A stretch of DNA of 41,150 bases from Thiomicrorhabdus sp. (GTDB lineage Bacteria > Pseudomonadota > Gammaproteobacteria > Thiomicrospirales > Thiomicrospiraceae): contig WFQP01000109.1 in the NCBI GenBank assembly GCA_015487015.1, positions 1 through 41,150 on the forward strand. Direction: 5' to 3'. Below the pieces are notes generated by a model, which did not search any database, was not told the DNA's origin, and saw only the letters and a program-made list of their open reading frames with translations. The position numbers and the translations under genes were made by a program. Shown one piece after another: positions 1 through 41,150 of this stretch; the stretch's first letter is position 1; each line of letters begins with the position of its first letter.

Positions 1-81
1 TGTCAATATGGCGAAGTGGAATGTTCACTTTTCTGAGTGGCCAGTGGTTCGAGTTTCATGAAATTAAATGTAAGAAAAAAT

Positions 82-915
82 ATGACAATAAAATTTACAA
101 AAATGCAGGGCTTAGGGAATGACTTTATGGTGGTGGATGCGATTCATCAATCCATAATTTTTTTTCCCCCCCTTGTTCAGCAGTGGGCAGATCGTCATTT
201 TGGCATTGGATTTGACCAACTATTGGTGGTGGAAGAAGCGACCCAAGAGGGGGTGGATTTTCGTTACCGAATTTTTAATGCCGATGGTTCTGAGGTTCAG
301 CAGTGTGGCAATGGTGCGCGGTGTTTTGCACGATTTGTGGTGGATAAAGGCTTAACAGATAAAACGGAGATTACCGTTGAAACCGCGTCGGGTATTATTG
401 TGTTGTATATGGAGCAAAGCGGTTGGGTGCGTGTGAATATGGATGCGCCTAATTTTGCGCCTGAATCGTTGCCTTTTTTACAAGCAGAGCCGCAGACGGA
501 CTATACGCTTGAAGTGTTAGGTGAATCGATTACGCTGGGGGCGGTCTCGATGGGCAATCCTCATGCCGTATTATTGGTGGAGGATATTCAGAGCGCTCAG
601 GTGGATCGATTGGGTGCGGCGATTGAGTCGCATGAGTGTTTTCCTGAGCGAGTGAATGTCGGCTTTGCACAAATAATAGATCGCCAGCACATCACATTAC
701 GCGTGTATGAACGCGGTGCGGCAGAAACCTTGGCCTGTGGCACGGGAGCGTGTGCGGCGATGGCGGTGTTACGAGCGTGGAATTTAGTTGATGAGTCGGT
801 CACGATCACCCTTCCGGGGGGAGATTTATTGATTCGTTGGAGTGGTCAAAAAGAGGACTCGGTGTGGATGAGTGGCCCAGCGGTTACCGTATTTGAAGGA
901 GAGATAAGCGTATGA
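82..915 (+). CDS. dapF: Diaminopimelate epimerase
   Basis: Cytoplasmic PLP-independent epimerase that converts LL- to meso-diaminopimelate for lysine and peptidoglycan synthesis. The 277-residue product has the N-terminal KMQGLGNDF motif and both catalytic cysteines, Cys75 in QQCGNGARC and Cys219 in LACGTGAC, so it should be active. I start it at the ATG at 82 because family members begin just before this motif. In-frame GTG 37 and ATG 58 would only add a non-conserved tail. A T8-C7 run (C at 166-172) lies at about codons 29-31 and encodes PP; one inserted C leads to a nearby stop. The gene overlaps the next one by four bases (ATGA), indicating translational coupling in the dapF-DUF484-xerC operon known from many gammaproteobacteria. 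Confidence 0.96.
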   Translation: MTIKFTKMQGLGNDFMVVDAIHQSIIFFPPLVQQWADRHFGIGFDQLLVVEEATQEGVDFRYRIFNADGSEVQQCGNGARCFARFVVDKGLTDKTEITVETASGIIVLYMEQSGWVRVNMDAPNFAPESLPFLQAEPQTDYTLEVLGESITLGAVSMGNPHAVLLVEDIQSAQVDRLGAAIESHECFPERVNVGFAQIIDRQHITLRVYERGAAETLACGTGACAAMAVLRAWNLVDESVTITLPGGDLLIRWSGQKEDSVWMSGPAVTVFEGEISV

Positions 916-1589
916 CACAAGGTACTTTACATCCTGAAGAGGTGGTGAACTATCTCGATCAAAATCGAAAGTTTTTTCATGCATGCCCCAATTTATTGGA
1001 TGAATTGAGTATTCCGCACCCTAAAACGGGCAAAGCGGTTTCTCTGTTAGAGCGTCAAGTTTTTCAACTACGAGAGCAACGCGATGCGTTAAAGGTTGAA
1101 GTGGATACCTTAGTGAACATTGCGGGTGAAAACGGGCAGTTGTTTTTAAAGGTGCAAAAATTTACTAAGGCATTGATGGCGACTCAAACAGAGCAGGCAG
1201 CGATGGACTGTATTTATGAACAGATGGCCACCCTATTTGAGGTGGAGCATATTGCGATGGTATCTTGGGATACGCCTAAGATTTGTTTGCAGGGCTTAAG
1301 CCAGTTGGGAGTGAGTCAAACGTGGGCGGAAACGCTTAAAGGCAGCTTGGAGATGGGCAAGCCTGCGTGTGGTTTTGTGGAGAACGAGTGGCAAAAAGGC
1401 TTGTTTCATACTAAAGAGCCGATGAAATCGGTCTGTATTTTGCCGTTAGGGCAGGAGGCTGTCTGGGGCGTTTTGGCACTGGGGTCGCAAACCGAACGCT
1501 TTAACCCAAACCTAGGAACCTACTTTTTAACGATGATGTCGGAACTGATTACTGCCAAACTCAACCACCTGTTTAAGCGCACAGACTAG
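912..1589 (+). CDS. DUF484 family protein
   Basis: A 225-residue DUF484 protein (YigA type), a family of unknown function regularly encoded between dapF and xerC. The N-terminal part (about residues 1-35) includes the family-typical segment YLDQNRKFFHACPNLLDEL. A predicted coiled coil follows at about 44-70, and the rest is GAF-like. No catalytic residues can be named. The start overlaps the dapF stop (ATGA) and the stop is ten bases before xerC, so it is probably co-translated with its neighbours. The link to XerC or to peptidoglycan precursor synthesis rests only on conserved context. Confidence 0.9.
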   Translation: MTQGTLHPEEVVNYLDQNRKFFHACPNLLDELSIPHPKTGKAVSLLERQVFQLREQRDALKVEVDTLVNIAGENGQLFLKVQKFTKALMATQTEQAAMDCIYEQMATLFEVEHIAMVSWDTPKICLQGLSQLGVSQTWAETLKGSLEMGKPACGFVENEWQKGLFHTKEPMKSVCILPLGQEAVWGVLALGSQTERFNPNLGTYFLTMMSELITAKLNHLFKRTD

Positions 1590-1599
1590 GTCTGTTTTT

Positions 1600-2538
1600 G
1601 TGTTAACAAATTTTTTAAGAACATTACAGCTTCAACAAAAGTCGGCGCATACGATTGCGAATTATCGGAGTGATATTGAAGATTTTTTGGCGTTTTATCT
1701 CACTGGACAAACCCGCCAAGAGGGGGGGGAAGACTCTGTGACTGAACGCAAACAGATGATGGGCTGTTTTGAGGATTGGTCGGTTATTGATTCTGAGGCG
1801 ATTCGAGCCTTTTTAGCGTTTCGGGTGCATCAAGGCATTAGTGCACGAACACTGGCAAGACAGTTATCAGCTTTGCGTTCGTTTTATGACTATTTGTTGC
1901 GAGAGTCGGTGGTGTTTAAAAACCCTGCAAAAGGGGTGAAAGCGCCGAAACAACCTCAACCGTTGCCTAAAAGCTTGGATGTGGATTGGACGCAAAAATT
2001 ACTAGAGCAGCCGATTGAGTCTTGGCAAGATGTTCGAGACCAAGCGGTGTTTGAGTTGTTGTATTCGGCAGGGTTGCGTGTCTCGGAGTGTGCAACGTTG
2101 GATATCTCACCGGGGTTGGATGAGCTAGAATCGGGCTGGGTACGTGTTTGGGGTAAAGGTCAAAAGCAACGGCTTGCACCCGTGGGGTCAAAAGCTCTTC
2201 AGGCAATCAATACTTGGCTGGCGGTTCGTGAACAGTATGCCAACTCTGATGAACAGGCCGTTTTTGTCAATCAAAGAGGCGGCCGTTTTGGTGTACGATC
2301 TATTCAAAATAGTTTGGATAAACGCACCTTAAAAGCAGGGCTGCCCACCAAAATGTCGCCGCATCGTTTACGCCATGCTTGTGCCACCCATGTATTGGAA
2401 TCCAGTGGTGACCTGCGAGCGGTGCAAGAGATTTTAGGTCATGCCAATTTATCGACCACACAAATTTATACCAAGCTTGATTTACAGCACTTGGCGCAGG
2501 TGTATGATCAAGCGCACCCGAGAGCCAAAAAGAAATAA
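1600..2538 (+). CDS. xerC: Site-specific tyrosine recombinase XerC
   Basis: Cytoplasmic recombinase that acts with XerD at dif to resolve chromosome dimers. The 312-residue product has an N-terminal SAM-like core-binding domain (about 1-100) and a C-terminal catalytic domain. The full active-site set is visible: Arg160 (SAGLRVSE), Lys186 (GKGQKQ), His255 and Arg258 (HRLRHACAT), His281 (GHANL) and the nucleophile Tyr290 (IYTKLD). Position after dapF and DUF484 supports XerC over XerD. The start is a GTG. The N-terminal domain carries an extra loop at about residues 36-58 that contains a G8 run (1722-1729) encoding two glycines. This loop makes it slightly longer than the usual ~300 residues. 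Confidence 0.94.
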   Translation: MLTNFLRTLQLQQKSAHTIANYRSDIEDFLAFYLTGQTRQEGGEDSVTERKQMMGCFEDWSVIDSEAIRAFLAFRVHQGISARTLARQLSALRSFYDYLLRESVVFKNPAKGVKAPKQPQPLPKSLDVDWTQKLLEQPIESWQDVRDQAVFELLYSAGLRVSECATLDISPGLDELESGWVRVWGKGQKQRLAPVGSKALQAINTWLAVREQYANSDEQAVFVNQRGGRFGVRSIQNSLDKRTLKAGLPTKMSPHRLRHACATHVLESSGDLRAVQEILGHANLSTTQIYTKLDLQHLAQVYDQAHPRAKKK

Positions 2539-2586
2539 AGAATAAGTTTTTGTTTTCATTTAAAATACGGGCATTAATTTTTTATT

Positions 2587-2595
2587 CCCCCCCCC
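2587..2595. repeat. C9 run in the hslV leader
   Basis: Nine consecutive C on the plus strand, 32 bases upstream of the hslV start and between the xerC stop and the hslV ribosome-binding site (AAAGGAAGG). It could alter the leader or promoter spacing if its length changes. Confidence 0.9.
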
Positions 2596-2627
2596 TCTAT
2601 TTATATTAGGTTTAAAAGGAAGGTAGT

Positions 2628-3164
2628 ATGTCATTTCGAGGAACCACAATTTTATGCGCCAAGCGCAACGGTCAAATGGTGATCGGTGGAGATGGTCAGG
2701 TTACGCTGGGGCATGTGGTGATGAAAGGCAACGCCCGTAAAGTCAGGCGTTTGTACAGTGGCGAAGTGATTGCAGGATTTGCCGGAGCAACCGCCGATGC
2801 GTTTACACTGTTTGAACGCTTTGAAGCTCGTTTGCAAACGCATAATGGACAATTGATGCGTTCCGCTGTTGAGATGGCAAAAGAGTGGCGAACCGATCGT
2901 GCCTTACGCAAGCTGGAAGCGATGATGTTGGTCGCGGACAATGAAAATATGTTACTGATTTCGGGAACAGGCGATGTGATTGAGCCGCAAGATGATTTTA
3001 TTGCCATTGGTTCGGGTGGCAGTTACGCACACGCGGCGGCACAAGCTTTGATGGCGAACACTGAATTATCAGCACGCGATGTGGTAGAAAAGTCATTACA
3101 CATTGCGGGCGATTTATGCATTTATACCAATCATAATTTAACCATTGAATCGTTAGGAGAATAG
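2628..3164 (+). CDS. hslV: ATP-dependent protease proteolytic subunit HslV
   Basis: Threonine peptidase subunit of the HslVU (ClpYQ) protease, 178 residues. The mature N-terminal Thr-Thr is in FRGTTIL, followed by GGDGQVT and the GFAG segment typical of HslV. The ribosome-binding site AAAGGAAGG is well placed. In most proteobacteria hslU, the ATPase partner, follows immediately. Here the next gene, one base after the stop, encodes a UPF0114 membrane protein, and no HslU is present anywhere in the window. HslV alone has little activity, so an HslU elsewhere is expected. No clear sigma-32 promoter was recognised upstream. Confidence 0.95.
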
Positions 3165-3165
3165 T

Positions 3166-3741: not shown

Positions 3742-3761
3742 TTGAAACGCACTTAAACGAT

Positions 3762-3803
3762 AAAAAAGCCCGCAATTGAATCATCAATTGCGGGCTTTTT
3801 TTG
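3762..3803. terminator. Bidirectional rho-independent terminator
   Basis: A perfect 12-bp stem (3768-3779 pairing with 3784-3795, GCCCGCAATTGA and its complement) with a four-base loop, A6 on the left and T7 on the right. It lies between the convergent UPF0114 gene and the porin gene and can terminate both. Confidence 0.95.
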
Positions 3804-3843
3804 TATGAAGATTTTGTATCTAACTAAAAGGGCTTGGCCTTAG

Positions 3844-5022
3844 TTACATAACCATTTGCCAGCGCATTTGTAGGATGGATGGATCATCATCCCCCGCTTC
3901 TTGGTCGGTGTCGATATCAATATAGTTGAGCATGACACGCACATTTTTGTTTTGATACCAATTGAGCGCAAAGGTCGTATTGGTTTGTTCGCCACCTGTA
4001 ATCGTTCCTGTTCGGCTGTTTAGATCAATGTAACTACGACGAATAGCCACTTCCCATACATTTTGACCTCGTCCTACTTTAACTGCACCAAAGCTGCCTG
4101 ACCGTGCGGAATAGGCTCGTTGTTTGCCGTTAATTAGCCAACTGGCAGAGAGGTAGCCACCGTCGAAGGTTTCATCCTGTTTGTCTCCAAAGCGTGAAAC
4201 GCGGGTGGCAATGTATTCACCTTGAAGTGTTACAGGGCCTGTGGCGAGAATGGCTTCAATTCCTTGAATCATTTGACTGTCTACATTTCGCATTCGCCCT
4301 GTGCTGACTAAGGTTTCGGTGGTTACGCTGGATTCGGGTTGGGTTCGAATGCGTAATTTTTGATCAAGATCCGGCGTACGATAAGACGCGGAACCCCCAA
4401 AATGTAAAATAGTATTTCGGTCACGATAGCTGGTAAAGGTTAAACGACCACTGAATCCTTTTGCGCCGTCTTGTGGAAAAAGATCGGAGTCTTCAATGTA
4501 GGTCTCCCAAAAGCTACCTGCTGTAAATCCCCAGTTATTTCCCCAGCGTTGCATGGAAAATCCAACATTAAATCCGGGGCTGAAGGCATTGGCAAGAGAG
4601 CGTTCCATAAAGACTAGGTTGTTGGAGCTGGTGACTTCTTCAAGGCTAAAAGGTTCTTGGATTTGACCAGCTGTTAGGTAGGTTTTATAAAATCCTGAGT
4701 AACGAATAGAGGCGGATTGAAAGGGGGTATCATCGCCAGATACATTGTATTGTGCACTGATTCGCCAGTCATTAAATAGATCGGCTCTGAGTGATATACG
4801 CGCTCGACGTACCATCCAATCATTTTCTAATGGTGTTTTGTCTTCATTAAATACTGCACCATCTAGGTGTAATCGCCCGCCCATTTTGATCTTGACATTG
4901 CCATCGTCGGATTGGTATAAAAACCCTTTACTAGGGAGCTTTTGATCGTTTGCATGTACGGGAAGTGCAGAAACTCCTAGACAAGAAATAAAAGCAAGGG
5001 GGGGGAAAAATTTGACGTTCAT
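3844..5022 (-). CDS. Phosphate-selective porin O/P family outer membrane protein
   Basis: A 392-residue protein with a signal peptide (about residues 1-24, ending HA before NDQ) and a long run of amphipathic strands. The early GGRLHLDGA, VRRARISLRADLFNDW and QEPFSLEE segments are typical of the OprO/OprP (porin_O_P) family, so it is probably a 16-stranded trimeric anion channel in the outer membrane; the true substrate is unknown. It ends in Met instead of the usual terminal aromatic residue recognised by the Bam machinery. Its signal-peptide codons 6-9 contain a C8 run (4998-5005 on the plus strand). A change of one base gives a stop within about 16 or 30 codons. It is the last gene of a four-gene unit, 11 bases after the hydrolase gene, and ends at a strong terminator. 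Confidence 0.82.
   Translation of the reverse strand: MNVKFFPPLAFISCLGVSALPVHANDQKLPSKGFLYQSDDGNVKIKMGGRLHLDGAVFNEDKTPLENDWMVRRARISLRADLFNDWRISAQYNVSGDDTPFQSASIRYSGFYKTYLTAGQIQEPFSLEEVTSSNNLVFMERSLANAFSPGFNVGFSMQRWGNNWGFTAGSFWETYIEDSDLFPQDGAKGFSGRLTFTSYRDRNTILHFGGSASYRTPDLDQKLRIRTQPESSVTTETLVSTGRMRNVDSQMIQGIEAILATGPVTLQGEYIATRVSRFGDKQDETFDGGYLSASWLINGKQRAYSARSGSFGAVKVGRGQNVWEVAIRRSYIDLNSRTGTITGGEQTNTTFALNWYQNKNVRVMLNYIDIDTDQEAGDDDPSILQMRWQMVM
4998..5005. repeat. C8 run in the porin signal-peptide codons
   Basis: On the coding strand the run follows TTT TT and spans codons 6-9 of the porin gene. Insertion or loss of one C closes the frame quickly in both alternative frames, read by hand. Confidence 0.9.
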
Positions 5023-5033
5023 TACGGTATCTC

Positions 5034-5915: not shown

Positions 5916-5933
5916 CTAGGACGTTCCATTTAG

Positions 5934-9333: not shown

Positions 9334-11662
9334 TTTTATCCCCCCCTCTCTTTTTTCCAAGATGGCGTAAGGTTAGGTAAATAGCGATCATGATTGAAGT
9401 GAGAGTGCTTAACCAAATGAGGCTACTGGTGGGGTGTTGGTTAAACGTGGCCGTTTGGTAAAAGCCAACCGCAACGCTGTAGCCGAGAGTCATGCTCCAG
9501 CCACCACTGTACAGCGCCCACTTCCAACCCAGCTCTTGTTTGATGGCACTGAAGGTGGCAATGCAAGGAAAGTAGAGCAGTATGAGTAATAAATAGGCGT
9601 AAGCACCGATGTAACCATCAAAGTGGTTGACCATTTTATCCAGTGTTGAGAGAGTAAAGCCTTGGTCTTCGGCAACTTTAAGTTTATTTTCAATGTTATC
9701 AATGGCATGCAGCCCTAGTGGATCTGTGATGTCATTGACAATGCTGGATAAATTATTAGGTATGGTGGCCAGTGCGGTATGCATGGCATGAATAAAGTCA
9801 TAAGGGGCTGAGTTTTCGGGGGGTGGGCTTTGGTTCTGATACAGTGCATCCAGAGAGCCAACCACCACCTCTTTGGCTAATAATCCGGTAATTAACCCAA
9901 CGGTGGCTGGCCAGTTCTCTTCTGTAATGCCCAGAGGCTCCACAACGGGGGTGACCAATTTTGCGGCAGTACTGAGAACAGAGTGGGGTTGGTTTTCATT
10001 ACCAAAGGTGCCATCGGTACCTAGACTGTTAAAAAAGTTAATTACGAGCACGACAATTACGATGATTTTACCAGCATCTAAAATAAAGCTTTTGAGCTTA
10101 TTGCGTGTGCTGAGCAGTACATTCAATAGCGCGGGTTTATGGTAGATAGGCAACTCCATAAGTAGGGCGGGTGCATTACCGGGTAGAAGTGTGTGCTTTA
10201 ACAGCAGTGCAGTAAGAATGGCGGCAAGAATTCCGACTAAATACAGTGAAAAAACAATGAGTGCAGCATGCTCGGTAAAAAAAGCGGTTGCAAACATAAC
10301 GTATACGGTTAAGCGGGCACTGCACGACATAAAAGGGGTCATCATCGAGGTCATGATGCGATCCCGTTGATTGGGTAGGGTACGAGTGGCTAATACGGCT
10401 GGAATATTACACCCAAAGCCAATGATGAGTGGAATAAAGGCTTGCCCTGATAAGCCCAGATGGCGCATGAGATTATCCATAACCAGTGCGGCGCGTTGCA
10501 TATAGCCGGTCTCTTCCATAATGGAGAGCATTAAAAAGAGTGCGCCAATCACTGGAATAAAGGTGGCTACGACTTGAATACCACTTCCAATGCCTTGTGC
10601 TAGAAATGAGATGAGCCAGCTGGGGGCGTGAATGGACTCTAGTAAAACGGTGGGCCCATCGACAAATAAGGCTTGTGCTCCGAGATCAAAAAAATCTAAA
10701 AAGGCGTTGCCCATGGTAATGGAAAGCGCAAAAACTAAGTACATAATGCCTAAAAAAATGGGCATGCCTAAGTAGGGGTGCAGTAACCAGTGATCCAGTC
10801 GATCGGTTGTGCTGCGGGTAAATTGGTCGGTATGAATTTGGCAAGCATGGGCAGCATCGTGGGCAAATTGAAAGTATAAATCCGCAATAATAAGTGCGAG
10901 GTCTTCTTGAAACAGTGCCTCTAATCGTTGTTTTTCAGCTTGGCATATTTGTTGTACTGTTTGTGGTGCGGCGAGAGGTCTAAGTAAGTATTGTAGGGCT
11001 TGCCAACAACTGGTGGCTGTGCTGATTTTTTGCAGACGGAGAACGGATTGACGCAAAGCATCAGGAAGATGCAAATTGAGGGGGGCAGGAGACGGCTTTA
11101 ATAACTCGGGCAGTCGTTGTTTAAGCAGGTCAATACCCTTGTTGTAATAGGCGGATACGGGAATGACGGGGCAACCCAGTTGTTCGGCTAATTTATCACA
11201 GTCAATCTGAAGGTTACGTTCACCGAGTAGATCCATGCGATTGAGCACCACCACAACAGGCTGTCCCATGTGCAGCAGTTGTGCGGTTAGAAAAAGCTGA
11301 CGCTCTAGGCTGGTCGCATCCACCACATTAATAATGAGGTCAGGTGAGGCGGTTTGTAGGTATTGGCAAGCCACTTGTTCGTCCAAGCCACTGTGAGAGG
11401 TTTGCTCTAAGCTGTAAATACCGGGTAGATCAACCACATCGTAGTGATGCTGGTTAAACTCAAAATTACCAACCGTTTGTTTTACGGTAACGCCTGGCCA
11501 ATTGCCTGTGGTTTGCTGGCTGCCAGTGAGCCGATTAAAAAGTGTGGTTTTGCCACAGTTAGGATTGCCAATTAACCCAATTTTAAGTACTTTTTTAGGG
11601 GGGGGGGAAGCTTTTTTACGAGCATCAAGAACATTGGGTGTGTGGGTGGGCTGTTTATTCAT
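9302..11662 (-). CDS. feoB: Ferrous iron transporter FeoB
   Basis: Inner-membrane GTP-gated Fe2+ importer of 786 residues. The N-terminal G domain shows G1 GNPNCGKTT, G2 NWPGVTV, G3 DLPG and G4 NRMD, followed by the helical regulatory domain and the membrane domain with two Gate regions (for example GFGCNIPAVLATR). Two homopolymers matter. A C10 run at codons 19-22 (11598-11607, encoding SPPP just before the G domain) closes the frame at once if one C is gained and shortly after if one is lost. A G7 run at the 3' end (9340-9346) sets where the protein stops relative to feoC. The start overlaps feoA by ATGA. Confidence 0.97.
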   Translation of the reverse strand: MNKQPTHTPNVLDARKKASPPPKKVLKIGLIGNPNCGKTTLFNRLTGSQQTTGNWPGVTVKQTVGNFEFNQHHYDVVDLPGIYSLEQTSHSGLDEQVACQYLQTASPDLIINVVDATSLERQLFLTAQLLHMGQPVVVVLNRMDLLGERNLQIDCDKLAEQLGCPVIPVSAYYNKGIDLLKQRLPELLKPSPAPLNLHLPDALRQSVLRLQKISTATSCWQALQYLLRPLAAPQTVQQICQAEKQRLEALFQEDLALIIADLYFQFAHDAAHACQIHTDQFTRSTTDRLDHWLLHPYLGMPIFLGIMYLVFALSITMGNAFLDFFDLGAQALFVDGPTVLLESIHAPSWLISFLAQGIGSGIQVVATFIPVIGALFLMLSIMEETGYMQRAALVMDNLMRHLGLSGQAFIPLIIGFGCNIPAVLATRTLPNQRDRIMTSMMTPFMSCSARLTVYVMFATAFFTEHAALIVFSLYLVGILAAILTALLLKHTLLPGNAPALLMELPIYHKPALLNVLLSTRNKLKSFILDAGKIIVIVVLVINFFNSLGTDGTFGNENQPHSVLSTAAKLVTPVVEPLGITEENWPATVGLITGLLAKEVVVGSLDALYQNQSPPPENSAPYDFIHAMHTALATIPNNLSSIVNDITDPLGLHAIDNIENKLKVAEDQGFTLSTLDKMVNHFDGYIGAYAYLLLILLYFPCIATFSAIKQELGWKWALYSGGWSMTLGYSVAVGFYQTATFNQHPTSSLIWLSTLTSIMIAIYLTLRHLGKKRGGDKNDSAQTQTLY
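9340..9346. repeat. G7 run at the feoB/feoC junction
   Basis: Reading the coding strand by hand: G7 (present) extends feoB into feoC; G8 would give GGA TAA and stop feoB three bases before the feoC ATG; G6 would put feoB in frame with feoC and fuse them. Confidence 0.85.
11598..11607. repeat. C10 run at feoB codons 19-22
   Basis: Ten C on the coding strand, with A6 starting three bases upstream and T-A6 following. One extra C gives TAA directly after the run; one fewer gives a stop about eight codons on. This is the joint longest G/C run in the window. Confidence 0.9.
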
Positions 11663-11995: not shown

Positions 11996-12051
11996 GGGGG
12001 GGAGTTATAGTTTATTTAGTATTTAATACACTAGAAGAATTTCTTCCCCCC
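11996..12051. repeat. G7 run and C6/C4 cluster between feoA and metW
   Basis: G7 at 11996-12002 lies 83 bases upstream of feoA; on the feoA strand it is a C run. A second pyrimidine block, C6-T-C4 at 12046-12056, precedes the metW stop codon (the gene ends at 12065). No other feature is visible in this 150-base gap apart from the Fur box. Confidence 0.8.
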
Positions 12052-15231: not shown

Positions 15232-15603
15232 AATAGGTTCGCTTTTACTGTGATAAAAAAGATAAGCAATATTATACGCGATATCAAAAATACTCCCTCT
15301 TCTTTTTGATAGGGGGGGGGAATTAAGGGTTTTAATTTAGAAAAAAGTTTCTTGAATTCACACATTAAGTGCAATTCTGTCTAAGCCATTAAGAAATCTA
15401 ACGATTGTTGTTGAATATATATTTTTTCAGTTAAAGTGCTTGCTTGATGCGTACTATAGCTGATATGTTGGTATGTGGTTATAAAAAATGTTCTTAATTT
15501 GCTGCTAGGAGGGCTTTAAATAATGAGTAAACGTGCGAAATAAAAGTGGAGGCATGTTTCTAATTTTTGTTCACACTCTTTTCATATTTATTGTTCGAAG
15601 CAC
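15232..15603. other. Intergenic region between proC and the FliA-promoter gene
   Basis: About 480 bases separate proC from the next gene. They contain the G9 run, AT-rich sequence, and near 15507-15543 a consensus ribosome-binding sequence AGGAGG followed 10 bases later by a six-codon open frame (MSKRAK, stop at 15541-15543). No RNA gene or transposon end was recognised, and the mini-frame may be chance. Confidence 0.6.
15312..15320. repeat. G9 run upstream of proC
   Basis: Nine G on the plus strand, that is C9 on the proC strand, 81 bases before its start codon. Confidence 0.9.
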
Positions 15604-16673: not shown

Positions 16674-16681
16674 CCCCCCCC
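16674..16681. repeat. C8 run downstream of the 15711 gene
   Basis: Eight C, 16 bases after the stop codon and just ahead of the terminator hairpin. Confidence 0.9.
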
Positions 16682-20104: not shown

Positions 20105-20140
20105 GGGGGGGGAGAAATTTATTTCTTGCCCTTTTTTTTT
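20105..20140 (+). terminator. argC terminator built on a G8 run and embedded in yidD
   Basis: G8 (20105-20112), then AGAAAT paired with ATTTCT and GGG paired with CCC across a bulge, then T9 (20132-20140). The T9 and half of the stem are also the last codons of yidD on the other strand. Confidence 0.65.
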
Positions 20141-23388: not shown

Positions 23389-23396
23389 CCCCCCCC
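23389..23396. repeat. C8 run in the leader of the EAL-HDOD gene
   Basis: C8 followed by T-C4, 57 bases upstream of the start codon, in the 276-base gap between two divergent regulatory genes. Confidence 0.9.
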
Positions 23397-24669: not shown

Positions 24670-24679
24670 CCCCCCCCCC
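24670..24679. repeat. C10 run in the aldehyde dehydrogenase leader
   Basis: Ten C flanked by T5 and a run of T, only 28 bases upstream of the start codon and 16 bases after the preceding stop. Confidence 0.92.
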
Positions 24680-24707: not shown

Positions 24708-26078
24708 ATGGCAATGGAATCCATTAATCCAGCAAACGGTGAGTTATTAGGTACGTTTGAAACCTGGGATCAAGCCACCTTAGATGATGTGGTTACCCAA
24801 GCTGGCTATCAGTTTAAAGAGTGGTCTCAGCTGACCCCTATTGAAGACCGTTGTACGATGATCAAGCGCGTTGCAGATGTGCTTAGAGACGACAGTGATA
24901 AGTTGGCTGAATTGATTTCACTGGAAATGGGTAAAACCTTTATTGAAGCACAAGGTGAAATTGAAAAATGTGCCAAGGTCTGTGACTATTACGCGGAAAA
25001 AGGGCCTGAATTTTTGGCAGATGAACTGGTGGAAACCGATGGCTCTAAAAGTTATGTGAACTACCAGCCGCTAGGGGTTGTGTTAGCCGTGATGCCTTGG
25101 AATTACCCTTTTTGGCAAGTGTTTCGTTTTGCGGCACCTGCGTTAGTGGCTGGAAACATTGCTATATTAAAGCACGCATCCAATGTACCGCAGTGTGCGT
25201 TAGCGCTAGAAGAAGTCTTTAGAAAAGCGGGCTTTCCTGAAAATATTTTTACCACGCTTATGATTGGTGCTCGTATGGTTGAAAGTGTGATTCGCCATCC
25301 TGCCGTTAGAGCGGTGACTTTAACGGGTAGTGAAAATGCTGGACGAAAGGTAGCCAGTGTAGCGGGTTCAGAGCTTAAAAAAACGGTGTTAGAGTTGGGT
25401 GGGGCGGATGCCTTTATCGTACTCGACAGTGCTAATATGAAAGCCGCCATTGACGGCGCGGTGGCTGGTCGTTTTTTAAATATGGGTCAAAGCTGTATCG
25501 CTGCGAAACGATTTATTGTGGATGAGAGTCGTTTTGAAGAGTTTGTTGAAGGCTTTAAAACAGCGATTGAAGAGAAGTTTGTTGCGGGAGATCCGATGGA
25601 TGCCAGCACAACCTTGGCACCGATGTCTCGTCAAGATTTATTAGAAGAGATGCATGAGCAGGTAGTGAAAGCGGTTGAAATGGGGGCAACCCTTGTTACA
25701 GGTGGCTATCAGCTAGACCGCCCTGGAAGTTATTACGCGCCGACTATTTTAACGGGCATTACTAGTAATATGCCAGCATACAGTGAAGAGTTTTTTGGTC
25801 CGGTGGCTATGGTGTTCTCGGCAACGGAACCAGCGCATGCGTTAGGCATTGCTAACTCTATCAATTACGGGCTGGGTGGCTCGGTGTGGAGTGATGACTT
25901 AACAACCGCAGAAACTATTGCTCGGGGTATGGAATCGGGAGCAACCTTTATTAACAGCCCAAGCTTTTCTGATCAAAGAATGCCATTTGGGGGGGTAAAA
26001 AATTCGGGTTATGGCCGTGAGCTCTCTTCACAAGGCATTCGCGAATTTATGAATGTGAAGTCTATCTGGATTAAATAA
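24708..26078 (+). CDS. NAD(P)-dependent aldehyde dehydrogenase, succinate-semialdehyde type
   Basis: A 456-residue cytoplasmic aldehyde dehydrogenase. The catalytic Glu lies in LELGGADAF and the catalytic Cys in NMGQSCIAAKRF, with PWNYPFWQVFR and LTGSENAGR in the cofactor domain. The length, MESINPANGELL start and FMNVKSIWIK end fit the short GabD/Sad (YneI) group, so oxidation of succinate semialdehyde is the likeliest reaction, but the substrate is not proved. A G7 run (25989-25995) encodes the GG of FGGVKNSG. It is coupled by TAATG to the next gene. Confidence 0.88.
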   Translation: MAMESINPANGELLGTFETWDQATLDDVVTQAGYQFKEWSQLTPIEDRCTMIKRVADVLRDDSDKLAELISLEMGKTFIEAQGEIEKCAKVCDYYAEKGPEFLADELVETDGSKSYVNYQPLGVVLAVMPWNYPFWQVFRFAAPALVAGNIAILKHASNVPQCALALEEVFRKAGFPENIFTTLMIGARMVESVIRHPAVRAVTLTGSENAGRKVASVAGSELKKTVLELGGADAFIVLDSANMKAAIDGAVAGRFLNMGQSCIAAKRFIVDESRFEEFVEGFKTAIEEKFVAGDPMDASTTLAPMSRQDLLEEMHEQVVKAVEMGATLVTGGYQLDRPGSYYAPTILTGITSNMPAYSEEFFGPVAMVFSATEPAHALGIANSINYGLGGSVWSDDLTTAETIARGMESGATFINSPSFSDQRMPFGGVKNSGYGRELSSQGIREFMNVKSIWIK

Positions 26079-26850: not shown

Positions 26851-26880
26851 AAGGTGGGGGGAAGTTTCCCCCCCACCCTT
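26851..26880. terminator. G/C-run hairpin between convergent genes
   Basis: AAGGTGGGGGGAA pairs with TTCCCCCCCACCCTT with small bulges. The C7 run is 26868-26874. It overlaps the helicase stop codon, and the following T tract is interrupted on both strands, so termination efficiency is uncertain. Confidence 0.65.
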
Positions 26881-30686: not shown

Positions 30687-31796
30687 ATGAAGCGTTTTAA
30701 AAAAAATATATTTGCTTTGACGGCACTGACGGTGGCGTTATATACCGCGCAAGGCATTTCATCAGAGCCAGCCATACAAGACCCTTATATTGAGGGGTTT
30801 AAAGCCTATGCTGAAGAGGTTAAAAGTTACAGTAATGACTTAAATCACTCTTTATTAAGTTATGTGGATGAGGTTAAACAGGCTGAAAAACAGGTGGGGT
30901 ATATTGGTGAGGTACTGCCTATCCCGAATGCTATTCAGGTCACCGACGGAGTGTATACCGTGGTGGGGAGTATGATTTGGCACAATCCGAGTAATTTTGG
31001 TTTAAATAATAATCTGTCTTTTATTATTTTTGAAGATGGGGTGTTTGTTTTTAATGCGGGGGCGAATGCGGCCTTAGCGTACAGTCTTCATCAACAAATA
31101 AAAGCTCTCACGGACAAGCCTGTTAAATGGATCGCTGTTGAAAACAATCAAGGGCATGCTTATTTGGGTGCCAGTTATTGGGTGGATGTGGGGGTAAAAA
31201 ATCTCTATTCGAGTGAAGTCGCCAATGAGCAGTTTGATGCGGGGTTTGATCGAACAAAGCGCGAGTGGTCAGAGCGTGTGGGTAAAAAAATCACCTTATC
31301 AGCACGTAATGTCAGTGATCAATTTACAACCTTTGAAGATAAAATGGTGATTGAGGTAGGGGGGGGAGAAAAAGTGTATTTGTATGATTTTGGCCCCGGT
31401 CATACCCCCGCCTCAACCAGTCTTTATGTTCCATCTCGTAAGGTCTTCTTTACGGGTGACTTAGGCTTTAATGAACGGATGCCTGTTTTTTTTAAATACA
31501 CCAATGTTAAGGCATGGATTGAGTCTTATGAAGCAATGATGTCTACCATTCCTGAAGATACGATTATGGTGCCGGGTCATGGAACCCCTACAAGTATGGT
31601 GACATTAAAAAAACAGACGTATGATTATTTAGTGTATTTATATCAAAATATTGAAAAAATTGTGGAAGCGGGCGGGTCACTAGAGGATGCTTTATCATTG
31701 GATCAATCAATGTATCAGGATCGACCTGTCTTTCGCCAGGCGGCAGAAAATAATGCAAGGCATGTTTATAATGAAATTAGTGGAGGAGGGTTTTAA
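30687..31796 (+). CDS. Periplasmic metallo-beta-lactamase-fold protein with degenerate metal site
   Basis: A 369-residue protein with a signal peptide (about 1-22), so probably periplasmic. The metallo-beta-lactamase fold is recognisable, and the later ligands His239 (GPGHTPAS), Asp258 (TGDLGF) and His298 (VPGHGTP) are kept. The first motif, normally HxHxDH, reads ENNQGH at 152-157 and keeps only its last His. The zinc-1 site should therefore be missing or altered. The general architecture recalls SoxH-like or quinoprotein-relay hydrolases of sulfur oxidisers. A G8 run at codons 225-227 (31359-31366) encodes GGG. Confidence 0.78.
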   Translation: MKRFKKNIFALTALTVALYTAQGISSEPAIQDPYIEGFKAYAEEVKSYSNDLNHSLLSYVDEVKQAEKQVGYIGEVLPIPNAIQVTDGVYTVVGSMIWHNPSNFGLNNNLSFIIFEDGVFVFNAGANAALAYSLHQQIKALTDKPVKWIAVENNQGHAYLGASYWVDVGVKNLYSSEVANEQFDAGFDRTKREWSERVGKKITLSARNVSDQFTTFEDKMVIEVGGGEKVYLYDFGPGHTPASTSLYVPSRKVFFTGDLGFNERMPVFFKYTNVKAWIESYEAMMSTIPEDTIMVPGHGTPTSMVTLKKQTYDYLVYLYQNIEKIVEAGGSLEDALSLDQSMYQDRPVFRQAAENNARHVYNEISGGGF

Positions 31797-34110: not shown

Positions 34111-34160
34111 GGAGTCGAATATCTTCTTTTTAAGGTTTTAGATTCATATTTTACTCAATA

Positions 34161-35003
34161 TTAGGAGGGGGGGAGAAAGTTTTTTAATTGTTGAATCTCT
34201 TCTGGCCAAATACTCATGTCAATGGTTTCTAAGGTCATGGGGATATTATCAATTCGTGGGTCTGCCATGAGCTGTTTAAAACAGTCCCAGCCTATTTCCC
34301 CTTCTCCTAAGCTGTGGTGACGGTCTAATTTTTGCCCTAGCACGGCTTTGGAGTCATTTAAATGCATGCCTTTTAAATATTGAAAGCCAATCACCGATTC
34401 GAAATCAGCCATGACACCTTGATAGTCATTTTTTAAATCGTAGCCTGCCGCATAGGAATGGCAGGTATCAATACAGACACCAATGCGGGTTTTATCTTCT
34501 ACTTTTTCAATAAGATAAGCGAGCTGTTCGTGGCGATAACCTAGATTAGAGCCTTGTCCTGCAGTATTTTCAATGACGGCTGTTACGCCGTTGGTTTGGT
34601 CGAGTGCAAAATTAATGGATTCGGCAATGAAATCTAAACAACGTTTTTCAGAAATTTCTCGTAAATGACTCCCCGGATGAAAATTTAACAGGGTTAACCC
34701 AAGTTGTTCACAGCGTTGCAGTTCATCAATAAAGGCATCCAGTGATTTTTGACGTTTATCAATATCAGGATGACCCAAGTTAATTAAATAACTGTCGTGA
34801 GGCAGTATTTGATGCGATTGATAGCCATAGGTTTCACAGTTTTTCTTAAAGGCTTCAATGCTCTGCGCTGTTAAGGGTTTTGCCTGCCATTGACGTTGGT
34901 TTTTGGTGAAAAATGCAAACGCGGTTGCACCGATTTCATGCGCACGGATGGGTGCATTTTCAACCCCTCCAGCCGCTGAGACATGAGCGCCTATGTATTT
35001 CAT
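34161..35003 (-). CDS. nfo: Endonuclease IV
   Basis: A 280-residue zinc-dependent AP endonuclease for base excision repair. Signature elements are [88 protein letters not shown] split over the active site, and the final TLETID. These supply the expected His, Asp and Glu metal ligands. A G7 run (34167-34173) encodes the last LPP residues. Confidence 0.96.
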
Positions 35004-35160
35004 TTAAATCAACACTCCTTATTTAGATGGCGTACAGCTGAGTTTGGCATGTTATATGCATAGCATTCATTATAGCGAATTAAACCGTCAATTAATTGGC
35101 ATGACTGAGTGTTTTAATCCGTCCTTGTCTACTTGGCGTGAACAGAAGAGGTATGAAAAA

Positions 35161-35670
35161 ATGGCAATTGATCTACGAAAAGTTGAGCCACTTGGCTCCA
35201 AAAGTGTTTTGTTAGAGCAGGCGATGCGTCGTCAACAAGGCATGGGGGGGGGGAATATTGGTAGTGGACATCAGATGAATGACATTGATATGTCGGATAT
35301 GGTGACCCCTGATTTTGAATGGTTAAAAGAAGATAAGATTGCAATAGAGGGCTTGGTTAAGCAGATGGATGCCTCGATTGGTATGTTGGCTAATCAAATA
35401 AAAGATGTGGATACGGCGTCTAAAAAGTCTCGAGTGATGATTGAAAAAGAGCAACAACTCCTGTTTAAACAAATTCGAACCCTAAACAGTCTATTAAAGA
35501 ACCAGGTGGATCTTTTTGGTTCTATTGAACGCCAAATGTCGGCCGTTGAGTTGAAGCAGAATAACTTACTACCTCAAATTGGCATTGGTTTAATGGCGGG
35601 GTTAATGTCTGCTGTTACGATTTTAGCCACCGCACCTTGGCTAACCGTGCTAATTGAAGGGATGCGGTAA
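35161..35670 (+). CDS. Unknown coiled-coil protein with C-terminal membrane segment
   Basis: Not recognised. I choose the ATG at 35161 because AGAGGT lies about nine bases upstream; the longer frame from a TTG at 35044 is less likely. The 169-residue product has a polar start, a predicted coiled coil (about 60-135) and one hydrophobic segment near the C-terminus (IGIGLMAGLMSAVTILATA), like a tail-anchored membrane protein. Codons 28-31 are ATG followed by a G10 run (35244-35253, encoding MGGG); gain of one G brings TAG four codons later and loss of one brings TGA soon after. It converges on ppx with a 15-base gap. Confidence 0.6.
   Translation: MAIDLRKVEPLGSKSVLLEQAMRRQQGMGGGNIGSGHQMNDIDMSDMVTPDFEWLKEDKIAIEGLVKQMDASIGMLANQIKDVDTASKKSRVMIEKEQQLLFKQIRTLNSLLKNQVDLFGSIERQMSAVELKQNNLLPQIGIGLMAGLMSAVTILATAPWLTVLIEGMR
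35244..35253. repeat. G10 run near the start of the 35161 gene
   Basis: Ten G after CAT, at codons 28-31. Both single-base length changes shut the frame within a few codons. Confidence 0.92.
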
Positions 35671-35685
35671 TAAGGTATTTTTAAT

Positions 35686-37242: not shown

Positions 37243-39374
37243 GAGGTATAGGTTTCAATAAGGGTTTGCTGTGCATTAAAAGGAGGAAGGTTATCCTGCT
37301 TTGGCTGGTAGCTGCCATCGGGTTGCAGCAGCCATGCACCAGTATTATCTTTTAGATAGATAATTAACCCCTCTTCGTATACTTGTTGAAAGCAGTCGGG
37401 GTCCATAACAGGAAAGCAAGTCTCAACACGCGCCCATAAATTGCGTCTCATCCAGTCGGCACTGGAGCCGTATAGCTCCGCTTGACCCTCAGTGTTTAAA
37501 AAATAATAGACTCGATGGTGCTCTAAAAAACGCCCAATAATGGAGGTAACGGTAATATTTTCAGAAAGCCCCAACACACCGGGTCTTAGACTGCAAATGC
37601 CTCGCACAATTAGGTCAATTTTAACGCCCGCTTGTGAGGCTTCGTACAGCGCATCAATAATAGAGACCTCTTCGAGACCGTTCATTTTAGCAATAATACG
37701 CGCTGGTTTTCCAAGGCGAGCATTATGAGCTTCGCGTTGAATTTTTTCAATCATGCTGGACTGTAACGTAAACGGTGATTGCAAGAGTACATCGAGGTCT
37801 TTGGTATCGCCTAGGCTGGTCAATTGCTGAAATATTTTAGAGGCATCTTGGCCTATTTCGGGGTTGGCGGTGAGCAGTCCAAAGTCGGTATAAAAACGGG
37901 TGGTTATGTGGTGGTAATTTCCTGTGCCTAAGTGTGTATAGCGTTGGATTTTATCGCCTTCTCGTCGAATGACTAAAATCATTTTAGCGTGGGTTTTATA
38001 GCCAACCACTCCGTAAACAACATGAACCCCCGCATCTTGTAAGCGCATGGCTTGAATAATATTGTTGTCTTCATCAAAGCGAGCACGTAACTCAACCACC
38101 GCGGTGACTTCTTTACCATTTTGTGCGGCACGTTCTAATGCTTTAATAATTTTAGAGTGTTCGCCGGTTCGATACAGCGTCATACGAATTGCTAATACAT
38201 TCGGGTCGGTCGCTGCTTGTTGTAAAAAATCGATGACAGGCGTAAAGGCATCGTAAGGGTGGTGCAGTAAAATGTCTTTGTGACGAATTTTATCAAACAA
38301 TGTCTCAGCAATGTCTTGGCGTTTGAACAGTCTAAACGGGCTTTTAGATTTGCGCTTGGTGTTCATTTTTTTGGGCGCATAGGGGGGGAATAATAAGTCT
38401 GAACGATTGGCCATATCGGGTACTGCATTTAAACGGTGCAGGTTAACGGGGCCGTTGACTTGGAAAAGAGCATTTTCATCAAGTTGAAAGCGGTCGAGTA
38501 GATAGTCAATAATATTACGTGGGCAGTTATCGGCGACTTCCAAGCGAATGCTACCACCGTATTGACGAGCAGAAAGCTCTCCTCGAAGGGCGCTCATTAA
38601 GTCTTCCACTTCCTCTTCATCAATGACCAAATTTGTATTACGAGTAACCCTAAATTGATAACAGCCGGTAACCGTCATACCCGGAAATAGGCGGGAAACA
38701 TTGGCGTGTAAAATGGAGGAGAGAAAGACGAAATCATTTTCACCTTCGGTGGCTTCGGGCGGTAGCTTGACAACACGTGGCAGAGATCGGGGAACAGGCA
38801 CAATTGCTAAGCCATTGGAGCGTCCAAAGGCATCCTTTCCTTCCAGTGAAACAATAAAATTTAAGCTTTTATTTAATACTCTTGGAAAAGGGTGGGAAGG
38901 ATCGAGTCCCACCGCACTTAATACGGGCTGCAAGGATTCGGAAAAAAACTGGGTAATCCACTGATCGTGCTGTTCAGTCCAGTGGTTACGACGTAAAAAA
39001 TGAATATGCTCTTTTTCCAGTTCTGGAATCAAAATATTATTTAAGGTGTGGTACTGATCTTCCACAATCTGTTTAGCGGCTTGCAATAAATTTTTAATAA
39101 CCACTTTTGGGTCTTGTGAATCGGGCGTGGTTAACATACCCGGCTCTCGAGAAAGTTCATACAGCCGAGCCAAACGCACCTCGACAAACTCATCCATATT
39201 ACTACTGGAGATACATAGGTATTTTAAGCGCTCTAATAGAGGAATATTACTCTTTTTAGCTTGCGCCAGTACTCGGCGATTAAATTCGAGCAAACTCATC
39301 TCTTTATTAATATAGCGAGGGTAAGAAGGTGTGTCTTGAAGATTGGCTTCAGTAGAAGGGGGGGTAAATTCCAT
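37239..39374 (-). CDS. ppk1: Polyphosphate kinase 1
   Basis: A 711-residue enzyme that makes polyphosphate from ATP. The N-terminal domain begins RYINKEMSLLEFNRRVL. The catalytic His is in VGYKTHAKMILVIRREG, and the second conserved His is in FLEHHRVYYFLN; SSADWMRRNLWARVE is also typical. A C7 run covers codons 4-6 (39358-39364, encoding TPP): one extra C gives TGA four codons on, one fewer gives a stop within about 25 codons. A second C7 (38392-38398) encodes FPP. No convincing Pho box was seen upstream. Confidence 0.97.
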   Translation of the reverse strand: MEFTPPSTEANLQDTPSYPRYINKEMSLLEFNRRVLAQAKKSNIPLLERLKYLCISSSNMDEFVEVRLARLYELSREPGMLTTPDSQDPKVVIKNLLQAAKQIVEDQYHTLNNILIPELEKEHIHFLRRNHWTEQHDQWITQFFSESLQPVLSAVGLDPSHPFPRVLNKSLNFIVSLEGKDAFGRSNGLAIVPVPRSLPRVVKLPPEATEGENDFVFLSSILHANVSRLFPGMTVTGCYQFRVTRNTNLVIDEEEVEDLMSALRGELSARQYGGSIRLEVADNCPRNIIDYLLDRFQLDENALFQVNGPVNLHRLNAVPDMANRSDLLFPPYAPKKMNTKRKSKSPFRLFKRQDIAETLFDKIRHKDILLHHPYDAFTPVIDFLQQAATDPNVLAIRMTLYRTGEHSKIIKALERAAQNGKEVTAVVELRARFDEDNNIIQAMRLQDAGVHVVYGVVGYKTHAKMILVIRREGDKIQRYTHLGTGNYHHITTRFYTDFGLLTANPEIGQDASKIFQQLTSLGDTKDLDVLLQSPFTLQSSMIEKIQREAHNARLGKPARIIAKMNGLEEVSIIDALYEASQAGVKIDLIVRGICSLRPGVLGLSENITVTSIIGRFLEHHRVYYFLNTEGQAELYGSSADWMRRNLWARVETCFPVMDPDCFQQVYEEGLIIYLKDNTGAWLLQPDGSYQPKQDNLPPFNAQQTLIETYTS
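39358..39364. repeat. C7 run at ppk1 codons 4-6
   Basis: Seven C on the coding strand just after the start codon. Both alternative frames close early by hand reading. Confidence 0.85.
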
Positions 39375-39503
39375 AAGCGTTCTGAATGTTCCTGAATGGT
39401 GTTACAAAAAAGATTATTCCATTTTAGCGAGTTTTGTTTTAAAAATCAGGTTCAAAACAGTAAATTTAATTAAAGGGTTATTGAGCCTCCTTAAAATGTT
39501 TTT

Positions 39504-39512
39504 TGTTATACT
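39504..39512 (+). promoter_or_regulatory. Possible extended -10 promoter of erpA
   Basis: TGTTATACT fits an extended -10 box (TGnTATAAT). It lies about 85 bases before the erpA start, and no good -35 is at the right distance. Confidence 0.35.
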
Positions 39513-39595
39513 ACGACTTTTCGAATACAAAGCTTTCTTAAAGCCCTTTTAATATGAAGGGGCTTGGAAGGTCTCTTATATATAAGGAGGCAGAA

Positions 39596-39937
39596 ATGTC
39601 TGCTATTCCAACACCATTAGACTTTACTGAAGCAGCAGCCGCTAAAGTAAAAGGTTTAATTGAAGATGAACAAAATCCAAATTTAAAATTACGCGTGTAC
39701 ATCACCGGCGGTGGTTGCTCTGGCTTTTCGTATGGCTTTACGTTTGATGAAGAGCAAGCTGAGGACGATACGGTTGTCACCAAAGAAGGTGTTACGTTAT
39801 TAGTGGATTCAATGAGCTTTCAATATTTGGTGGGTGCTAAAATTGATTATCTAGAAGATTTGCAAGGCGCACGGTTTGTGATTGAAAACCCAAATGCAAC
39901 CACCACATGTGGTTGTGGTTCATCTTTTAGTGTTTAA
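39596..39937 (+). CDS. erpA: Iron-sulfur cluster insertion protein ErpA
   Basis: A-type iron-sulfur carrier of 113 residues. The three cluster-binding cysteines are in GGGCSGF and CGCGSSF, and [20 protein letters not shown] is characteristic of ErpA. The start at 39596 is fixed by the near-perfect ribosome-binding site TAAGGAGG; a longer in-frame start at 39554 lacks conservation. It is divergent from ppk1. Confidence 0.95.
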
Positions 39938-39946
39938 AATGTCTTC

Positions 39947-39954
39947 CCCCCCCC
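39947..39954. repeat. C8 run between erpA and citrate synthase
   Basis: C8 starting 9 bases after the erpA stop and 55 bases before the citrate synthase start. Confidence 0.9.
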
Positions 39955-40009
39955 TCTTCGTATGTAAAGCTCCTAGAGCAAATTAAACAAGTTAAATAGG
40001 ACAGCAATA

Positions 40010-41150
40010 ATGGAATATATTCCCGGTTTAGCAGGGATTCCCGTAACGGAATCAAAAATATCTTGTATTGATGGCCAAAAAGGAATCTTGTCATATCGTG
40101 GTTATGATATTCAAGAACTGGCGGAATTCTCCTCGTTTGAAGAGACAACGTTACTGTTGCTATTTGGCGATTTGCCAACGGCGGAAGAGCTGGCGCGGTT
40201 TGATGAGCAGTTAAGAGAGAATCGACGGGTTAAATATAACATTCGTGAAATCATGAAAAACTTACCGCCCACAACCCACCCAATGCACATGTTGCAGGTG
40301 GTCGTGGCGAGCTTGGCGAGCTTTTACCCAAGTACCGAGTACATGAAGGGTGGCACAGAAAATGAAGGTTATATTAACGATGTAACCGTTAAAATTATTG
40401 CCCACATGGGAACGCTAGTGGCCATGTGGGAGCACATGCGTAATGGCTATGACCCCATTGAACCGCGTAAAGATTTAACCTATGCCGAAAACTTTTTATA
40501 TATGGTGACAGGTGAAGAGCCCGATGCAAATTGGGCGCGTTTATTAGATGCCATTTTGATTTTACATGCAGAACACACCATTAACGCTTCTACATTTACT
40601 ACGATGGTAACTGGATCTACCTTGGCAAACCCCTGTTCCGTGATCTCTTCGGCTATTGCCTCTTTATCGGGGCCATTGCATGGTGGCGCAAACCAAAAAG
40701 TGATTGAGATGCTTGAAGAAATTGGCGCGCCTGAGAATGCACGCGCTTACATTGAAGACCGTTTGGCCAATAAAAAAGTCATTTGGGGCATGGGACATCG
40801 AGAGTATAAAACCAAAGATCCACGTGCCACGATTTTGCAAAAACTCTCTTCGGCCTTGTTGAAAGAAAAATCGGAAGAGTTGAGTACGATTTTTCAAACG
40901 GCATTGGAAGTGGAAAAAATATGCGAAGAGCTATTAGGACATAAAGGGGTTTACCCCAATGTCGATTTCTATTCGGGTATTCTGTATAAAGAGATGGGCT
41001 TTGATGTTGGTATTTTTACCCCCATATTTGCCGTAGCACGTTCAGCGGGGTGGATGGCGCATTGGCGCGAGCAGTTGCAAGACAATAAGATTTTTAGACC
41101 CACTCAAGTTTATAAAGGTTCAGGAAGTTTGTGCTACTTGCCCGTTGAAA
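40010..41150 (+). CDS. gltA: Citrate synthase (3' end beyond the window)
   Basis: The first 380 codons of a citrate synthase that condenses oxaloacetate and acetyl-CoA; the frame is open to the window edge. It starts MEYIPGLAGIPVTESKIS and shows the catalytic His in HAEHTINAST, SGPLHGGANQKV with the second His, GMGHREYKTKDPR and the catalytic Asp in PNVDFYSG. The short N-terminus is that of the dimeric (type I) citrate/2-methylcitrate synthase group, so 2-methylcitrate synthase is a less likely alternative. No prp genes are seen. Confidence 0.94.
   Translation, partial: MEYIPGLAGIPVTESKISCIDGQKGILSYRGYDIQELAEFSSFEETTLLLLFGDLPTAEELARFDEQLRENRRVKYNIREIMKNLPPTTHPMHMLQVVVASLASFYPSTEYMKGGTENEGYINDVTVKIIAHMGTLVAMWEHMRNGYDPIEPRKDLTYAENFLYMVTGEEPDANWARLLDAILILHAEHTINASTFTTMVTGSTLANPCSVISSAIASLSGPLHGGANQKVIEMLEEIGAPENARAYIEDRLANKKVIWGMGHREYKTKDPRATILQKLSSALLKEKSEELSTIFQTALEVEKICEELLGHKGVYPNVDFYSGILYKEMGFDVGIFTPIFAVARSAGWMAHWREQLQDNKIFRPTQVYKGSGSLCYLPVE

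Follow-up and report, generated by a model that had tools for sequence, protein, structure and literature searches.

A directional G-tract word abundant in a group of Thiomicrorhabdus-related genomes is a candidate DNA-uptake word

The 41,150-nt stretch of Thiomicrorhabdus sp. DNA analysed here (contig WFQP01000109.1 of assembly GCA_015487015.1, family Thiomicrospiraceae; referred to below as the window) is dotted with runs of seven or more G or C, each the core of a longer, directional sequence word, the G-tract word. The initial annotation of the window had counted 21 such runs, three of them 10 long, and our recount gave exactly these numbers; 19 of its 21 start positions were also correct, whereas the other two had to be moved from 38392 to 38382 and from 39947 to 39946. 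On the G strand, as it had reported, A precedes 17 of the 21 runs and follows 19, and comparison of the run positions with the list of open reading frames (ORFs) places 12 of them within ORFs. Its rough estimate that chance would supply very few also holds up: a Markov model of order 2 expects 2.35 runs of 7 or more in the window (an order-3 model expects 6.67, a figure inflated by the runs themselves).

The copies are described here by the length of the G run, those on the minus strand reading as C on the plus strand, and gene names other than dapF, hslV, groEL, feoB, metX and ppk are our reading of ORF translations. Relatives come from the 62 genomes of the family that we searched (G-numbers, with G000 the window's own genome): G038, G039, G043, G044 and G045 make up, with G000, the clade in which the runs abound, and genomes with few G-runs are called low relatives. 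A minus-strand G7 lies inside dapF (166..172); a C-run of at least eight occupies the same place in G038, G039, G043 and G044, is broken in G045 and is absent from low relatives. The plus-strand G8 inside a xerC-like recombinase ORF (1722..1729) reads G5 in G045 and is lost in the other relatives aligned, and the minus-strand G9 in the intergenic DNA before hslV (2587..2595) is C7 in G039 and lost in G045. At the 5′ end of a porin-like ORF on the minus strand, the plus-strand G8 at 4998..5005 continues with AAAAATTT, a full match to the extended word; it is lost in G044, the sole relative aligned there. Two copies fall in feoB: a minus-strand G7 at its 3′ end (9340..9346; C9 in G044, C7 in G038 and G039, broken in G045) and a plus-strand G10 in proline codons at its 5′ end (11598..11607; G7 to G9 in G045, G044, G039 and G038). 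For two intergenic plus-strand copies, the G7 at 11996..12002 and the G9 at 15312..15320 (upstream of a proC-like ORF), no relative aligned across the site. Three further intergenic copies are on the minus strand, at 16674..16681 (G8; C8 in G043, C6 in G045), 23389..23396 (G8; C8 in G043, the sole relative aligned) and 24670..24679 (G10; C9 in G043, C7 in G039), and a plus-strand G8 followed by AGAAATTTATTT sits between convergent ORFs at 20105..20112 (G10 in G043, G6 in G045, none in G044 or G039).

Inside a GGDEF/EAL-like ORF, relatives read GGGTGG at the site of the plus-strand G7 at 21051..21057. The plus-strand G7 followed by TAAAAAATT inside an aldehyde dehydrogenase-like ORF (25989..25995) is G7 in G039 and G043 and G6 in G038, and in eight loci outside the clade the run at this site is shorter or interrupted, G5 at most. 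Between convergent ORFs, a close inverted pair, G6-AAGTTT-C7 (26856..26874), is predicted to form a hairpin of -20.6 kcal/mol (z -3.07). Some of the named metagenome-assembled genomes (MAGs) with which further copies are compared may share a species with one of the numbered genomes. The plus-strand G8 inside a metallo-beta-lactamase-fold-like ORF (31359..31366) is G8 in MAG D96SM; the plus-strand G7 at the 3′ end of an endonuclease IV-like ORF (34167..34173) is G8 in D96SM, G6 in MAG 4281-140 and broken in MAG 354-166; and the plus-strand G10 inside an uncharacterised ORF (35244..35253) is G6 in 4281-140 and broken in the others. The ppk gene, whose product is closest to Ppk proteins from Thiomicrorhabdus MAG records (87-94% identity), as befits a host of that genus, holds two plus-strand G7 copies, one internal (38382..38388; GGGTGG in D96SM and 4281-140) and one at its 5′ end (39358..39364; lost in relatives). 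Finally, a minus-strand G9 just past a HesB/IscA-like ORF (39946..39954) corresponds to C11 a few bases off in D96SM and is interrupted in 354-166.

In agreement with the initial annotation, which saw a motif beyond base composition, the runs are the cores of a non-palindromic, genome-wide word of about 18 bp, approximately A-G7..10-A~4-T~4; what that annotation overlooked is the block of As and then Ts 3′ of the run, which is the key to the identity of the runs. When the G000 runs of 8 or more are aligned on their first G, A occupies position -1 in 90% and position -3 in 61%, and several As followed by Ts come after the run (A at positions 9-13 and T at 13-16 from the core start). The switch from A to T lies about 4 nt past the end of the run; a switch fixed from the first G was considered and set aside, since across 118 clean sites its slope on run length is 0.76 and it thus follows the run end more closely. 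The directionality is plain from exact counts: AGGGGGGGGNAAANNTT has 157 forward matches in the clade (52 in G000, 38 in G038, 19 in G039, 20 in G043, 10 in G044 and 18 in G045) against 5 when read backwards, and the other 56 genomes have one of each. The A/T context is carried by the runs of 7 or more of the clade and is missing from its runs of 4-5 G as well as from the G-runs of low relatives, so there are two populations of G-runs. The A/T segment accompanies runs of 7 or more whether they are coding (148 copies) or intergenic (77), and every one of the 14 top-ranking over-represented 9-mers in the G000 list contains part of a G-run. A position weight matrix (PWM) built from the other five clade genomes only (68 sites) reached a score of at least 14 at 244 places in 322 kb of G000 and at 2 places in 597 kb of low relatives; an earlier scan had scored its own training sites, and neither is used for directionality. 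Two words other than the G-run are also over-represented, one ATCCCCAGATAGAA-like in G043 (stretches L052-L054) and one CCCCACTTATT-like in G039 (L058-L062); they may be local repeats.

The initial annotation had proposed counting the runs genome-wide against a model and comparing related genomes. A 321,752-bp sample of G000 contains 121 runs of 7 or more, compared with about 16 expected under an order-2 Markov model, and A/T runs of 7 or more show no excess in the same sample (317 against about 331 expected). Runs of 8 or more number 532 in G000 (258 on one strand and 274 on the other, about one per 3.7 kb), 599 in G045, 529 in G043, 342 in G039, 325 in G038 and 279 in G044, and 0-42 in the remaining 56 of the 62 genomes, four of which exceed 20 (G011 with 42, G036 with 36, G017 with 23 and G054 with 21). 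In a ten-protein tree of 12 genomes (gaps allowed), the six G-tract genomes split from six low relatives with full branch support; that the six form a single clade assumes the low relatives as outgroup. G036 stands above most low relatives, and 26 of its 36 runs are preceded by A (stretches L130-L159). We considered it as an intermediate and rejected it: 30 of the 36 runs, examined by eye, have no A/T segment, and the genome groups with G035, outside the clade.

Many copies persist in related genomes. Across eight sets of clade relatives, 29 of the 58 alignable sites keep a run of 7 or more within 12 bases, and by the same criterion 0 of 22 are kept in low relatives; for comparison, 302 of 1609 random 8-mers (19%) are identical in clade relatives, by a criterion that differs from the one used for sites. 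Genic copies differ from their relatives by substitutions that resemble point mutations (GGGGGGG versus GGGTGG at 21051 and 38382), and the intergenic copy at 39946 is displaced by a few bases in one relative. Because the word recurs at orthologous sites of separately assembled genomes, including differently named MAGs, assembly error is unlikely; the initial annotation had argued against sequencing error.

Placement was examined in a 573,755-bp sample drawn from the six genomes. ORFs cover 89% of it and hold 90 of the 147 runs of 8 or more (61%), 46 of these 90 having their Gs on the sense strand. Runs of 7 or more are densest in gaps between convergent genes (18 in 6.0 kb), compared with tandem (39 in 27.0 kb) and divergent gaps (12 in 14.3 kb). 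The orientation of neighbours is random overall (90 of 189 alike versus 97 +/- 5 by chance), and all six neighbours (7 or more) less than 60 bp apart are inverted. Counting arms of 6 or more, nine pairs are closely spaced and inverted. Eight of the nine are intergenic, the window's pair at 26856..26874 is among the nine, and the five that were folded are all predicted to form hairpins, with energies from -18.6 to -31.8 kcal/mol and z scores from -1.8 to -5.2. Within genes, copies are unevenly spread over quintiles (20/9/8/18/24 with G on the sense strand, 33/13/6/9/8 with C), which resembles what part of PMC2346458 gives for uptake signal sequences (USSs); we do not count this, since our ORFs use the most upstream start and homopolymers generally favour gene ends.

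On balance, our analysis favours the view that the G-tract word is a previously unreported DNA-uptake word of the USS kind. Passages of PMC1626085 place 65% of Haemophilus influenzae USSs in coding regions, with a preference for non-coding DNA, report close pairs in opposite orientation, describe an AT-rich stretch that immediately follows the core on its 3′ side and runs from As to a final 3-4 Ts, and test an origin by point mutation. To the extent of that text, the G-tract word resembles the Pasteurellaceae USS (AAGTGCGGT / ACAAGCGGT) in its copies, which number in the hundreds, use both strands and are about two-thirds genic and yet enriched between genes, in its close inverted pairs, in the A-then-T segment directly 3′ of the core and in an apparent origin by point mutation. 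It differs in having a G-tract core of variable length without GCGGT and one AT segment (the USS has a second about 12 nt further on); moreover, it is randomly spaced, belongs to another bacterial family and comes without a canonical PilQ among our matches. In the mechanism that we infer, with a receptor, an uptake bias and a drive through transformation, a DNA receptor on a pilus or on the uptake machinery would prefer DNA bearing the word, the A/T segment would aid binding or bending, and word-bearing fragments would enter through ComEA and ComEC and then recombine. Biased uptake would thereby restore mutated copies, which would let hundreds build up on either strand, within genes as well as in intergenic DNA.

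Genes for such a route are present in G000. ComEC is encoded by an 872-aa ORF, and a 91-aa, ComEA-like helix-hairpin-helix protein scores 50.7 bits, below the TIGR00426 cut-off of 53.1 and above that of Pfam HHH_3. The secretin matches of G000 fall in a type II secretion-like cluster (C80) and in a cluster resembling that of the mannose-sensitive haemagglutinin (MSHA) pilus (C119; judged by gene order and an MshEN domain). In the Pasteurellaceae, the minor pilin ComN is the predicted USS receptor according to PMC12616744; here, a search for a receptor with the GspH/FimT profile gave a match in one of 14 genomes and in none of the clade. One pilin-like protein (L027:3473-4867) has an N-methylation motif and a C-terminal half with GxGxD-like repeats, and its only Pfam match at E 0.001 is N_methyl. 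The repeats resemble those of RTX proteins.

Several observations weigh against a role of the word in uptake. The distribution of the machinery does not follow that of the word: among the 14 genomes searched for each gene, in slightly different sets, 11 gave ComEC and 10 gave ComEA, whether or not they carry the G-tract word, and within the clade ComEC was found in 5 and ComEA in 3 of the six genomes, all of which are incomplete drafts (79-94%). The PilQ model TIGR02515 matched in 13 of 14 genomes and never over its cut-off, which was passed in only one of 14 control genomes, and the pili that we recognised in G000 look like MSHA-type and type II secretion systems, with no uptake pilus identified among them; several pilin-like genes were found through the N-methylation profile, none of which could be named as the receptor. 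The core is a homopolymer whose length varies, and no second AT segment is seen, the aligned G000 copies giving no clear signal past about +19. The held-out PWM scored 160 hits on reversed G000 sequence compared with 244 forward, because the G-run dominates the matrix; directionality therefore rests on the 157:5 count of AGGGGGGGGNAAANNTT and on the sequence logos rather than on PWM scans. Near-cognate copies without G7 are about twice as frequent as in the Markov control (30 versus 14 at score 10). Retention is uneven, with 0 of 5 sites kept in MAG 354-166 and 0 of 3 in MAG 4281-140. Of the 39 copies in tandem gaps, 27 have their G strand antisense, and spacing is no more regular than random (coefficient of variation 0.98 observed versus 0.99 random, USSs being reported as somewhat more regular). 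The two longest stretches free of sites contain genes of an ordinary kind (in one of them the dnaA-dnaN-recF-gyrB region, by our translation reading) and so give no sign of depletion in mobile DNA. Finally, we found no uptake experiment for the clade.

The initial annotation had offered three interpretations of the runs (contingency loci, a DNA-structure or protein-binding motif, and mutational bias), of which the protein-binding motif fits best, the runs belonging to a longer directional word; contingency loci are not supported, and mutational bias alone falls short. A protein could of course bind the word for reasons unrelated to uptake, and the main rival to an uptake word is a site for an abundant, clade-specific chromosome-organising or nucleoid protein: a specific word of about 18 bp at roughly one per 3.7 kb would suit this role, and the A/T segment could bend DNA. 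However, the copies have no orientation or neighbour pattern except in close inverted pairs, many are genic, and the match to USS architecture is closer, which leaves this explanation improbable, though one to be taken seriously. The G-rich core and the hundreds of copies in coding and non-coding DNA might also suggest a signal for recombination or chromosome segregation, along the lines of Chi or the FtsK-orienting polar sequences (KOPS). Those signals are strand-polarised, whereas on the contigs examined neighbouring copies of the G-tract word are randomly oriented and, when close, inverted, and we consider such a role very unlikely.

Two further explanations concern how the runs arise and vary. 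If G-tract slippage or the loss of a repair function had let G-runs grow in this clade, one would expect run lengths to vary as they do, from 7 to 11 among copies and relatives, and the sharp clade boundary could mark the loss of a repair gene. Slippage cannot, however, make the A at -1, the AAAA-TTTT segment or the 157:5 directionality; A/T runs are not in excess, some sites differ by substitution and many are retained. With no excess of A/T runs and with an extended motif, we rejected slippage or repair loss as the sole cause, and mutational bias alone, as the initial annotation had raised it, fails on the A/T segment, the directionality, the orthologous retention and the sharp clade boundary; we judge this explanation unlikely. 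G-tracts of 7-10 are a classic substrate of phase variation, and homopolymeric contingency loci occur in Campylobacter and Neisseria. Hypermutable tracts that switch genes on and off would have similar lengths and would, like the copies here, differ in length from one another; yet the copies in the window lie in dapF, feoB, ppk and similar housekeeping-like genes or between genes, the coding copies stand in open frames, some differences from relatives are substitutions, and the non-G context extends beyond anything that slippage would leave. The genome-wide spread and the retention within the clade also set the G-tract word apart, and that the runs are contingency loci, as the initial annotation had suggested, has hardly any probability left.

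K-mer counts in low relatives yield a different word, the palindrome CAGGCCTG, with 236-1173 copies in 32 of the 62 genomes and in four of the seven genera (reversed control, 0-28). It has 3-24 copies in the six G-tract genomes and 0-74 in the remaining 24. The 24 copies in G038 were considered as relics of an older dialect and not used, three of the 12 inspected sharing longer, repeat-like flanks. In G027, one of the remaining 24 genomes, another palindrome, ACCGGCCGGT, is found instead (36 copies in 80 kb; L092-L095). Cultured strains also carry CAGGCCTG: 22 kb of T. chilensis DSM 12352 contain 10 copies and 22 kb of T. arctica DSM 13458 contain 6, with no copies of the reversed control. Flanks of the palindromes were tested in six genomes and show a clear A/T segment in two: counting from the core start, G027 has A at positions 10-11 and T at 13-15, and G021 has A at 11-12 and T at 14 (p<0.001 per position, uncorrected). 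The signal is partial in G035 (T only, 13-14) and G034 (a single A, at 11) and absent from G048 and G036; light sampling of G052 and G006 gave no clear signal. No clear dominant word emerged in G002, G025, G031, G040 or G042, G007, G008 and G013 are dominated by other repeats, and the sample of G029 was too small to be used. Dense repeats of long words (about 18-40 copies) in G021 (L106-L109) and in G007 and G008 (L110-L117) are possibly CRISPR arrays or other repeats, and in 80 kb of G013 (L126-L129), with both strands counted, CCCAACCTGG (14 times) and AACCTGGCAG (11 times) are over-represented and possibly a further word. Among the matches listed from open-licence PubMed Central, no title or abstract opening mentions G-tracts, uptake words or CAGGCCTG/ACCGGCCGGT palindromes in Thiomicrospira or Thiomicrorhabdus.

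Since the palindromic cores of the two clear genomes have an A/T segment like its own, the G-tract word probably belongs, as one dialect, to a family of words of this kind; CAGGCCTG itself may be a word similar to HIP1, the iterated palindrome of cyanobacteria, or to an uptake word. Neisserial DNA uptake sequences (DUSs) have dialects and terminator-associated inverted pairs according to a portion of PMC3630211, and the G-tract word is like them in its inverted pairs and in being an abundant word replaced by others in related lineages. It is unlike them in sequence, and in having flanking motifs, which DUSs are without in the passage of PMC1626085 that treats them; no receptor like the ComP of Neisseriaceae was identified here, the GspH and N-methylation profiles being the means by which it was sought. 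HIP1 (GCGATCGC) is described in a section of PMC4390886 as palindromic, methyltransferase-linked and subject to lineage-specific replacement. On that description, the likeness lies in a highly iterated word with lineage-specific replacements, and the difference in that the G-tract word is non-palindromic (157:5), unlike HIP1 and unlike CAGGCCTG and ACCGGCCGGT of the relatives, which are palindromic as HIP1 is. As a tentative extension, which we think conceivable but somewhat doubtful, the family might have a third, independent uptake-word system with at least three dialects (AG8-AAAATTTT, CCAGGCCTGG and ACCGGCCGGT) that share the A-then-T segment, the G-tract word replacing the palindromic one in a single clade and uptake perhaps proceeding via a non-PilQ pilus. 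If so, the palindromic cores would imply that the receptor can recognise DNA in both orientations.

An excess of G-tracts thus need not signal phase variation. The best-established cases of self-recognition by sequence words during DNA uptake are those of Pasteurellaceae and Neisseriaceae; sulfur oxidisers from the environment that had a USS-like word, and that switched words within one family, would be an independent case in which to study the origin of such words, dialect change and species isolation. The question of the receptor would become testable outside pathogens and, since cultured Thiomicrorhabdus carry CAGGCCTG, a first uptake test would need no uncultured organism.

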